64,000 bases of DNA from Ignavibacteriales bacterium (GTDB lineage: Bacteria; Bacteroidota; Ignavibacteria; Ignavibacteriales; Melioribacteraceae): contig JAPLFG010000003.1 of assembly GCA_026390795.1 (NCBI GenBank), positions 682,001 to 746,000 on the forward strand. The letters are read 5' to 3'. The notes under the pieces were generated by a model. The model was not told the origin of the DNA and searched no databases. It saw only the letters and a program-made list of their open reading frames with translations. Each line of letters begins with the position of its first letter. The stretch's first letter is position 1. Shown piece by piece: positions 41,142 through 43,679 of this stretch. The translations under genes were made by a program, and so were the position numbers.

Positions 41142-43679
41142 ATGACCGCAAATATTGATATGATCAAAAAAGTTTATGCTGGATTTAATGATAAAATTAA
41201 ACAAGCGCGAAAAGTTGTTGGAAGACCAATGACTTACGCAGAAAAAATTCTATATGCACACCTTTGGGAGAATGCAACAGAACCGCTACAACGCGGAAAA
41301 GATTTTGCGGATTTTGCACCAGATCGTGTAGCGATGCAAGATGCAACTGCCCAAATGGCGCTGCTTCAATTTATGCATGCAGGTAGAAAATCTGCAGCTG
41401 TTCCGGCAACCGCTCATGCCGATCACTTGATTGTTGCTCAAAGCGGTTCTGAGGAAGATCTTGCACGTGCAATTGATGAGAACCGTGAAGTTTATGATTT
41501 TCTTGAAAGCATCTGTCAAAAATATGGAGTTGGATTCTGGAAGCCCGGTGCCGGAATAATTCATCAAGTGATTTTAGAAAACTACGCATTCCCCGGCGGG
41601 ATGATGATCGGTTCGGATTCTCATACACCCAATGCCGGCGGACTTGGTATGATAGCAATCGGAGTCGGCGGAGCGGATGTTGTAGATGTTATGGCAGGTA
41701 TGCCGTGGGAATTGAAATGGCCGAAACTTATAGGTATAAAATTAACCGGTAAACTTTCCGGATGGGTTTCTCCTAAAGATGTAATTTTGAAAGTTGCTGG
41801 CATCTTAACAGTTAAAGGCGGAACCGGAGCCATCGTTGAATATTTTGGTGAAGGGGCAAATTCAATTTCTTGTACCGGCAAAGCAACAATTTGCAATATG
41901 GGCGCAGAAATCGGCGCGACTACATCCTTATTTGCGTTCGATGAAAAAATGGCGGCTTATTTAGAAAAAACAGACCGTGCAGACGTTGCAAATCTTGCAA
42001 GAAAAAATGCTGATCTTTTAAGAGCCGATAATGAAGTTTATGCTGAACCGGAAAAATATTTTGATGAACTGATTGAAATAAATCTCAGCGAACTTGAAAT
42101 GCATATCAACGGTCCATTCACACCGGATCTTGCTCATCCAATTTCAAAAATGAAAGAAGCAGTTATAGAAAATAATTATCCGGATAAAATCAGTGTTGCA
42201 TTAATTGGTAGCTGTACAAATTCCAGTTACGAAGATATTGACCGCTCAGCCAACATCGCGCGTCAAGCTCTTTCAAAAGGATTAAAAGCAAAATCTGAAT
42301 TCAAAATTACTCCCGGTTCCGAACAAGTTCGAGCAACCATTGAACGCGATGGTCAACTGCAAACGCTTACAGAGTTCGGAGGGCAAGTATTAGCCAACGC
42401 ATGCGGTCCATGTATTGGAATGTGGAAAAGAATGGATATTAAAACCGGCGATAGAAATACAATTGTTAATTCATTCAATAGAAATTTTGCAAAGAGAAAC
42501 GATAACAATCCGGATACTCTTTCTTTTGTTGCAAGTCCGGAATTGGTGACGGCGCTTGCTATTTCAGGAAGCCTTTCATTCAATCCGGAAACAGATTATT
42601 TGGTAAATGAAAACGGTGAACAGGTAAAACTTGATTCACCATTCGGCGATGAACTTCCAAGCAGAGGATTTGAGAGAGACACAAAAGGATTTCTCGCACC
42701 AACACCTAACGGATTCAAAACTGAAGTGAAGATAAATTCTGAAAGCAGCCGTTTACAATTCTTGGAACCATTCAAACCGTGGGACGGAAAGGATTTTATT
42801 GATCTTCCTCTCCTGCTGAAAGCCAAAGGCAAATGTACAACGGATCATATTTCTCCTGCTGGTGCATGGTTAAAATACCGCGGTCATCTTGATAATATTT
42901 CTAAGAATATGTTCCTTGGCGCTATCAATGCTTACACTGGGAATCCGGGAGAAGCCAAAAACCAATTTACCGGCGAGTACAAACAAGTACATGAAGTAGC
43001 GCGCGATTATAAAGCTCAAGACATCGGTTGGATTGTTGTTGGCGATGAAAATTACGGCGAAGGTTCATCACGTGAACATGCCGCAATGGAACCACGCTTC
43101 CTCGGCGGCAAGGCTATCATAACCAAAAGTTTTGCACGTATTCACGAAACTAACTTGAAGAAACAAGGTATGCTTCCATTAACGTTTACAAATCCCTCTG
43201 ATTATGATAGGATTCAGGAAGGTGATAAACTTAGTATTGTTGACTTAAATGAATTTGCACCTGAGAAGCAACTTACTATGATCATCAAGCACAATGATGG
43301 TTTTCAAGAAGTAATATTACTTAACCATTCATTCAACGCCGGTCAAATCGCATGGTTCAAAGCAGGAAGTGCGCTGAATTTAATTGCCAGCAGCTTTCAG
43401 CGGTCAGCAGTCAAGAAGAAAAAAGTTGTGAACAAAAAAGTAAAGAAGGAAACAAGAAAAGAAGTAAAAATTGTTTCGAAGAAAACTACACCCAAGAAAG
43501 TCGTTGTGAAAAAAGTCAAACCGGCAGTTAAGAAGAAAACTGCTAAAGCGGTTGTGAAGAAGATTGTGAATAGTAAAAAATTATTAGCGAAGAAGATTGT
43601 TAAAAAAGCTGTAAAGAAAACTCCGATTAAAAAAGTTGGCAAGAAATTAGTAAAGAAGATTGTTCGAAAGAAAAAATAA
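41142..43679 (+). CDS. acnA: Aconitate hydratase with lysine-rich C-terminal tail
   Basis: Isomerises citrate to isocitrate in the TCA cycle. Residues 1-755 form a complete mitochondrial-type aconitase: SDSHTPNAGG, 4Fe-4S ligands Cys358 (GSCTNSS), Cys421 and Cys424 (ACGPC), and a swivel domain with GSSREHAAMEPR. The cysteine numbers equal those of the mature pig heart enzyme. After the normal end (AWFKAGSALNLI) the frame continues for 90 more residues (756-845), of which 40 are Lys and 2 Arg, with repeating KKxV and KKI motifs. This resembles bacterial histone H1-like tails and is not a usual part of aconitase. The tail may bind nucleic acid or other polyanions. Confidence 0.93.
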   Translation: MTANIDMIKKVYAGFNDKIKQARKVVGRPMTYAEKILYAHLWENATEPLQRGKDFADFAPDRVAMQDATAQMALLQFMHAGRKSAAVPATAHADHLIVAQSGSEEDLARAIDENREVYDFLESICQKYGVGFWKPGAGIIHQVILENYAFPGGMMIGSDSHTPNAGGLGMIAIGVGGADVVDVMAGMPWELKWPKLIGIKLTGKLSGWVSPKDVILKVAGILTVKGGTGAIVEYFGEGANSISCTGKATICNMGAEIGATTSLFAFDEKMAAYLEKTDRADVANLARKNADLLRADNEVYAEPEKYFDELIEINLSELEMHINGPFTPDLAHPISKMKEAVIENNYPDKISVALIGSCTNSSYEDIDRSANIARQALSKGLKAKSEFKITPGSEQVRATIERDGQLQTLTEFGGQVLANACGPCIGMWKRMDIKTGDRNTIVNSFNRNFAKRNDNNPDTLSFVASPELVTALAISGSLSFNPETDYLVNENGEQVKLDSPFGDELPSRGFERDTKGFLAPTPNGFKTEVKINSESSRLQFLEPFKPWDGKDFIDLPLLLKAKGKCTTDHISPAGAWLKYRGHLDNISKNMFLGAINAYTGNPGEAKNQFTGEYKQVHEVARDYKAQDIGWIVVGDENYGEGSSREHAAMEPRFLGGKAIITKSFARIHETNLKKQGMLPLTFTNPSDYDRIQEGDKLSIVDLNEFAPEKQLTMIIKHNDGFQEVILLNHSFNAGQIAWFKAGSALNLIASSFQRSAVKKKKVVNKKVKKETRKEVKIVSKKTTPKKVVVKKVKPAVKKKTAKAVVKKIVNSKKLLAKKIVKKAVKKTPIKKVGKKLVKKIVRKKK

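Follow-up and report, generated by a model that had tools for sequence, protein, structure and literature searches.

The window, by which we mean the whole analysed stretch of 64,000 nucleotides from an Ignavibacteriales bacterium of the Melioribacteraceae (contig JAPLFG010000003.1), carries an aconitase gene whose product continues into a long lysine-rich tail. The open reading frame (ORF; 41142-43679, +) comprises 845 codons and is divided into three parts: a catalytic core of the mitochondrial aconitase type (residues 1-748; 41142..43385, +), a short linker delimited by the C-termini of relatives (residues 749-755; 43386..43406, +), and a Lys-rich tail predicted to be disordered (residues 756-845 with the stop codon; 43407..43679, +). 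The TIGR01340 model (aconitase_mito) matches residues 12-748 over its entire length (model positions 1-745 of 745) with 1145.8 bits, against a cut-off of 825.35. The Pfam domains Aconitase and Aconitase_C cover residues 34-476 and 557-684, and bovine mitochondrial aconitase can be aligned to residues 19-749. An initial annotation of this DNA placed a complete aconitase before residue 756, and these matches bear it out: because TIGR01340 is complete at residue 748 and the bovine alignment reaches 749, the tail begins directly after a complete enzyme. The [4Fe-4S] ligands Cys358, Cys421 and Cys424, described there as intact, are all in place and invariant across 30 aligned sequences. The IRP1/AcnA model TIGR01341 scores 260.9 bits, below its cut-off of 945, and by these model matches the enzyme is of the mitochondrial type represented by yeast Aco1 and ACO2, not of the IRP1/AcnA type. 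The one other match to Pfam Aconitase in the genome is distant (L002) and lacks such a tail. Searches of Pfam and NCBIfam gave no ribosomal-protein match, bL21 included, for the whole aconitase or for the tail alone.

A recount of residues 756-845 gives 40 Lys, 2 Arg, 2 Glu, no Asp and 19 Val, in agreement with the content first claimed. For comparison, we used a genome sample composed of gene-blind stretches from all five contigs (1.48 Mb) together with the window (1.544 Mb in all, 37.9% of the genome), which holds 1,368 non-overlapping ORFs. At the sampled Lys frequency of 0.079, the probability of at least 40 Lys in 90 residues is ~9e-21, a post hoc value that takes residues as independent. 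The net charge of the protein from residue 749 onward is +41, compared with -15 for the core. An AlphaFold model built with 30 sequences, in which the core is mediocre (mean predicted local distance difference test score, pLDDT, 69.9 overall), was used for tail disorder alone; pLDDT stays below 50 over residues 761-845 and is ~25 for most of that stretch. Searched by itself against Pfam and NCBIfam, the tail gave chance-level matches to unrelated families (E 0.65 and 0.14) and none to an H1-like family, a test weakened by the composition correction of HMMER; Hc1 and Hc2 are what we take to be the bacterial H1-like protein families for this comparison. AAG makes up 17 of the 40 tail Lys codons, whereas its share across the genome sample is 20% (P 0.0014). 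No A-run in the tail coding sequence is longer than 6; slippage on poly-A would be expected to leave the opposite pattern. Such mixed Lys codons would limit frameshifting in the tail.

The tail is not absent from close relatives. Among 79 genomes searched in the window's family, 66 have an aconitase match, and across six genera, the window's own and five sister ones (g1, g6, g12, g16, g42 and g53), all 27 recovered aconitases extend beyond the core. Basic tails of 30-107 residues account for 26 of these extensions, three being cut by a contig end, and the exception (G066) has 21 mixed-charge residues only. In another genome of the window's genus, the aconitase (G003:C72:152190-154605) is split over two frames, by a frameshift or an assembly error. 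Three other loci from the family search end 5-6 residues after the core, tail-less loci from an earlier search end 4-6 residues past it, and 36 further family matches were counted by their match ends only, which lie at or near the core. Relatives assembled separately, including named public contigs, show the same core-tail junction, and the tail is therefore not an assembly error or a frameshift.

Selection on the tail was assessed as the ratio of nonsynonymous to synonymous substitution rates (dN/dS) in seven pairs. No tail dS was obtained for L144/L305, and among the remaining six, three pairs have members in common (L003, L004, L005). In these six close pairs, dN/dS is 0.24-0.37 for the tail and 0.026-0.053 for the core. 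Between 24 and 38 Lys/Arg columns of the tail are kept on both sides in the seven pairs, and 2-8 are present on one side only. Over 67 tails, Lys plus Arg (K+R) makes up 44.6 +/- 5.2% of residues. The Lys share, K/(K+R), drops with rising local guanine plus cytosine (GC) content (rho -0.59, P 2e-7, 67 tails, uncorrected for kinship), so that Arg replaces Lys in GC-rich genomes. Judged from these comparisons, charge rather than exact sequence seems to be what the tail keeps.

Tails of a similar kind are found in two further families of the same class, and a Cyclobacteriaceae-like family has them in two of its clades. Aconitases were scored as tailed if at least 25 residues follow the core and K+R reaches at least 24%, thresholds of our own choosing. 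In a phylum sample of 395 genomes with 180 matches, 30 loci were read, 19 tailed and 11 not; the 19 is a lower bound, as 150 matches there were unread and Arg-rich tails would score poorly. Family f37 gave matches in 125 of the 148 genomes searched, 18 of which enter a tail, and of 30 loci read there 17 are tailed and 13 are not. The order of G151 yielded matches in 33 of 98 genomes, and the 30 loci read there comprise 24 tailed, 5 tail-less and 1 contig-cut. Named public loci are tailed in 9 of 80 cases, namely Stygiobacter, metagenome-assembled genomes (MAGs) of other Melioribacteraceae or Ignavibacteria(les), and MAGs of Cyclobacteriaceae and other Cytophagales. Across clades the tails range from 30 to 152 residues and are alike in make-up, although by eye they are not alignable.

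On a quick tree built from the cores of 183 aconitases (67 tailed, 115 tail-less, and one, L353 at a contig end, counted as undetermined), with the tail itself excluded, at least 7 changes of tail state are required. The tailed rows of that tree fall in families f1, f5 and f10 and in two well-supported clades of f37 and named Cyclobacteriaceae. A careful tree of 42 rows, which we picked from the 183 to span clades, requires a minimum of 8 changes, 6 of them forced by well-supported (starred) branches, and one-change trees made up 0% of 200 bootstraps. The tail has been gained or lost several times, gains and losses being counted together, and gene transfer may have contributed. The tail-less genera G018/G078 and G013, which lie inside the tailed part of f1, are most simply read as losses. 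Left out of the tree were the paralogue L002 and four loci with too little core, of which L133, L309 and L337 are basic-tailed and L137 has 21 mixed-charge residues. Four loci that run off the contig (L007, L012, L034, L101) were counted as tailed, as was L340, which is at the threshold (K+R 0.24) and whose second half looks frameshifted. In L338, L343, L349 and L355, from family f5, the tails have abundant Arg, Pro and Ala in place of Lys (Arg at 18-26%), offering a natural test of charge versus residue identity. Those of L125, L133, L005 and L035 contain unlike stretches (VSEG, LARRGGK, LARQGGK and VRRGGK), which may be inserted translated palindromic repeats.

Within its own genome the tail is rare. 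The aconitase has the highest Lys count per 40-residue segment among the 1,368 sampled ORFs (19), and the runners-up, with 16 and 14 Lys, are no basic tails, having 6 and 8 acidic residues as well. When the ORFs were screened loosely for basic, acid-poor segments or C-termini, 14 of the 1,368 passed, and only two of these show a KKxV-style tail, the aconitase and pyruvate phosphate dikinase (PPDK, TIGR01828); Lys tails were therefore rejected as a genome-wide habit. Four of the 12 other ORFs were searched for their identity: three, an RF-1-domain protein, a DEAD-box RNA helicase and an alkylguanine-transferase-domain protein, come from families that act on nucleic acid, and the fourth has no Pfam match. 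The filter passes 3 of 395 ORFs in 400 kb of G018, a genome of the window's family with a tail-less aconitase, and 2 of 351 in 400 kb of G268, a genome of another family with a tailed aconitase. No KKxV-style tail occurs in either 400-kb stretch, the aconitases of both genomes lying elsewhere. Around the 80 named aconitase loci (1.007 Mb, 900 ORFs), basic, acid-poor segments are confined to 10 ORFs: seven aconitases, ribosomal protein S13, a weak RF-1 match and one ORF without a Pfam match. A 118-residue ORF of the window's genome (L263:17729-18085, +) has a signal-peptide-like start and an AKKVAEKK repeat, with 16 Lys and 6 acidic residues in 40.

The PPDK gene of the window's genome (L223:4-2454; C3, 445004-447454), whose N-terminus is cut by the sampled stretch, ends in a short KKAVKKVVKK-style tail. 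All 30 PPDK loci read in the window's family (relatives L274-L303) carry a tail, including those of genomes without an aconitase tail such as G018. The lengths of the two tails show no correlation (rho 0.20, P 0.35, 23 genomes). Outside the family the two tails are not cleanly linked, as judged from match ends only: 11 of the 18 tailed f37 genomes have no PPDK match, the PPDK match of G268 stops before a tail, and G669 has a tail-less aconitase yet a long PPDK match.

The surroundings of the gene offered no obvious source for the tail. A REP-like palindrome lies directly 3' of the aconitase stop codon (43686..43714, also given as 43685-43714, +) and scans as a terminator with 13 pairs; the region holds no more terminator-like sites than shuffled sequence does (2 versus 2.3). 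Upstream are a Tex-family gene and then an ORF (40420-40929, -) between REP-like palindromes (40336-40366 and 40981-41005), which has a weak IS200-like transposase match just below the Pfam cut-off and which we take to be RAYT-style. A DUF192 gene lies downstream on the opposite strand, and no Rfam family reaches its gathering score in 40000-48000. No tail-donor-like sequence was seen near the gene. A separate H1-like gene resembling the tail, which the initial annotation suggested looking for, was not found: a tail search of the genome returned the aconitase alone, a composition-corrected search insensitive to such sequence, and composition revealed none in the sampled 38% of the genome. On these two negatives, fusion with a separate H1-like gene is without support.

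Aconitase is the textbook case of an enzyme with an additional role on nucleic acids, and IRP1 is an RNA-binding aconitase. Under iron shortage, the apo form of E. coli AcnB binds the mRNA that encodes it (PMC4150767). AcnB and IRP1 are alike in binding RNA and belong to other subfamilies than the window's enzyme; AcnB binds as the apo-enzyme, whereas the tail would not require loss of the cluster. The parallel with RNA binding upon cluster loss that had initially been drawn needed correcting. For a mitochondrial-type enzyme the nearer case is the yeast nucleoid aconitase, whose role on mitochondrial DNA (mtDNA) is independent of cluster and catalysis. Yeast Aco1 resides in mtDNA nucleoids, binds mtDNA and stabilises it in cells without the packaging protein Abf2, with no need for catalysis (PMC7463775, PMC11431987). 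It is likewise a mitochondrial-type aconitase, an enzyme of the tricarboxylic acid (TCA) cycle with a catalysis-independent role on DNA; the text consulted describes no Lys tail on it, and its DNA-binding region is said to be distinct from the catalytic one (PMC7463775, PMC11431987). In the window's enzyme, by contrast, the candidate DNA-binding part is an added C-terminal tail.

Fission yeast Aco2 offers a likeness in its C-terminal addition, which links aconitase to nucleic-acid machinery: it is an aconitase fused to the mitochondrial ribosomal protein bL21, and depletion lowers mitochondrial protein synthesis (PMC11431987). There the addition is a ribosomal protein, whereas the window's tail has no ribosomal match. 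Among prokaryotic proteins with Lys-rich low-complexity regions, DNA-binding ones are over-represented; the Lys-rich tails of topoisomerase I, HU, Ku and H1-like proteins are low-complexity, as is the present tail, and are thought to bind DNA independently of sequence (PMC6821194). They differ from the window's tail in that the latter sits on a metabolic enzyme, and earlier work on eukaryotes, cited in the same source, had found metabolic proteins to be poor in low-complexity regions (PMC6821194). The literature searched, which leaves out most subscription journals, yielded no report of such a Lys tail on aconitase. The parts, a mitochondrial-type aconitase and an H1-like basic tail, are known; their conserved and recurrent union was not found reported.

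We propose that the tail may be a disordered polycation, in make-up like the C-terminal domain of histone H1, that would keep a functional aconitase attached to nucleoid DNA, RNA or both through non-specific electrostatic contacts. The benefit would lie in placement of the enzyme, or in protecting or compacting DNA in a way linked to TCA flux, along the lines suggested for mitochondrial Aco1 of yeast. We hold with moderate confidence that the tail is such an electrostatic tether to nucleic acid; binding of a polyanion in the cell, nucleic acid as its main partner, and the benefit in placement or protection are each what we infer. Conserved charge, predicted disorder and recurrence in other clades support the tether indirectly. 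Nucleic acid is favoured as the partner because prokaryotic Lys-rich low-complexity regions are enriched in DNA-binding proteins, because the three other identified basic-stretch proteins besides PPDK belong to nucleic-acid families, and because a mitochondrial-type aconitase already has such a role in yeast. Ribosomes are a possible alternative partner. More tentatively, several lineages of Bacteroidota and Ignavibacteriota might separately have made their mitochondrial-type aconitase nucleoid- or RNA-associated by means of an H1-like tail, and PPDK likewise in the window's family, a reading that we regard, taken whole, as doubtful. If true, it would be the same partnership as in yeast mitochondria, with part of central metabolism held on the nucleoid or on RNA.

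Several observations weigh against a tether to nucleic acid. Sister genera that lack the tail, some of them nested in the tailed clade of the careful tree (L013/L139, L014), show it to be dispensable. Its dN/dS is several-fold above that of the core, and total K+R declines somewhat with rising GC (rho -0.33, P 0.007, uncorrected for kinship). The tails of L075, L085 and L147 are more amphipathic than shuffled versions (z 3.7-4.7), which would also suit a membrane. To our knowledge PPDK has no nucleic-acid role, and its tail could point to another partner.

In a first rival reading, the tail binds some other polyanion, such as polyphosphate, acidic membrane lipid or an anionic polysaccharide, and so places or stores the enzyme there. 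A net charge of +41 alone cannot choose between polyanions, and the helical moment of the tails lies on average 1.0 standard deviation (SD) above shuffles, with the three amphipathic tails at 3.7-4.7 SD. In the Lys/Arg spacing, 4 is favoured (1.23 of expected) and 2 is avoided (0.57). However, the window's own tail lies just 1.3 SD above shuffles, and mean hydrophobicity is slightly negative (-0.17). A simple amphipathic membrane helix is not favoured. A search on aconitase, polyphosphate and lysine gave nothing on point among the best 10 of 58 matches, and we consider a partner of this kind rather unlikely.

An improbable alternative is that the tail binds acidic protein surfaces, on its own core or on the partners of PPDK, and clusters enzymes of central carbon metabolism. 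The opposite charges of core and tail would suit this, as would the same-style tail on every PPDK read in the family. Yet the cores of tailed enzymes are less acidic than those of tail-less ones (mean -7, n=19, versus -17, n=84; uncorrected for kinship), the tail lengths of the two enzymes are uncorrelated, and G018 keeps a PPDK tail though its aconitase has none. Nearly neutral growth of low-complexity sequence at a permissive C-terminus, tolerated and without function, could account for tails that cannot be aligned between clades, that vary widely in length and that are lost in some lineages. It is quite improbable in view of the constraint on the tail, the retained Lys/Arg columns, the exchange of Lys for Arg with GC, the AAG enrichment where slippage would give A-runs, and the lack of such tails on any other sampled ORF of the genome but PPDK. 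An assembly or frameshift artefact is virtually excluded by the junction shared among many separately assembled genomes and by the purifying selection on the tail.

How much the finding matters depends on confirmation of the tether. As far as we know, other aconitases carry their second function inside the fold, where it is hard to remove cleanly. A tether of the kind proposed would make it a separate, removable tail, with the tail-less sister genera as natural controls, and why aconitase associates with genomes and mRNAs would become testable by tail removal. The tailed PPDK raises the possibility of a wider placing of metabolic enzymes in these bacteria.
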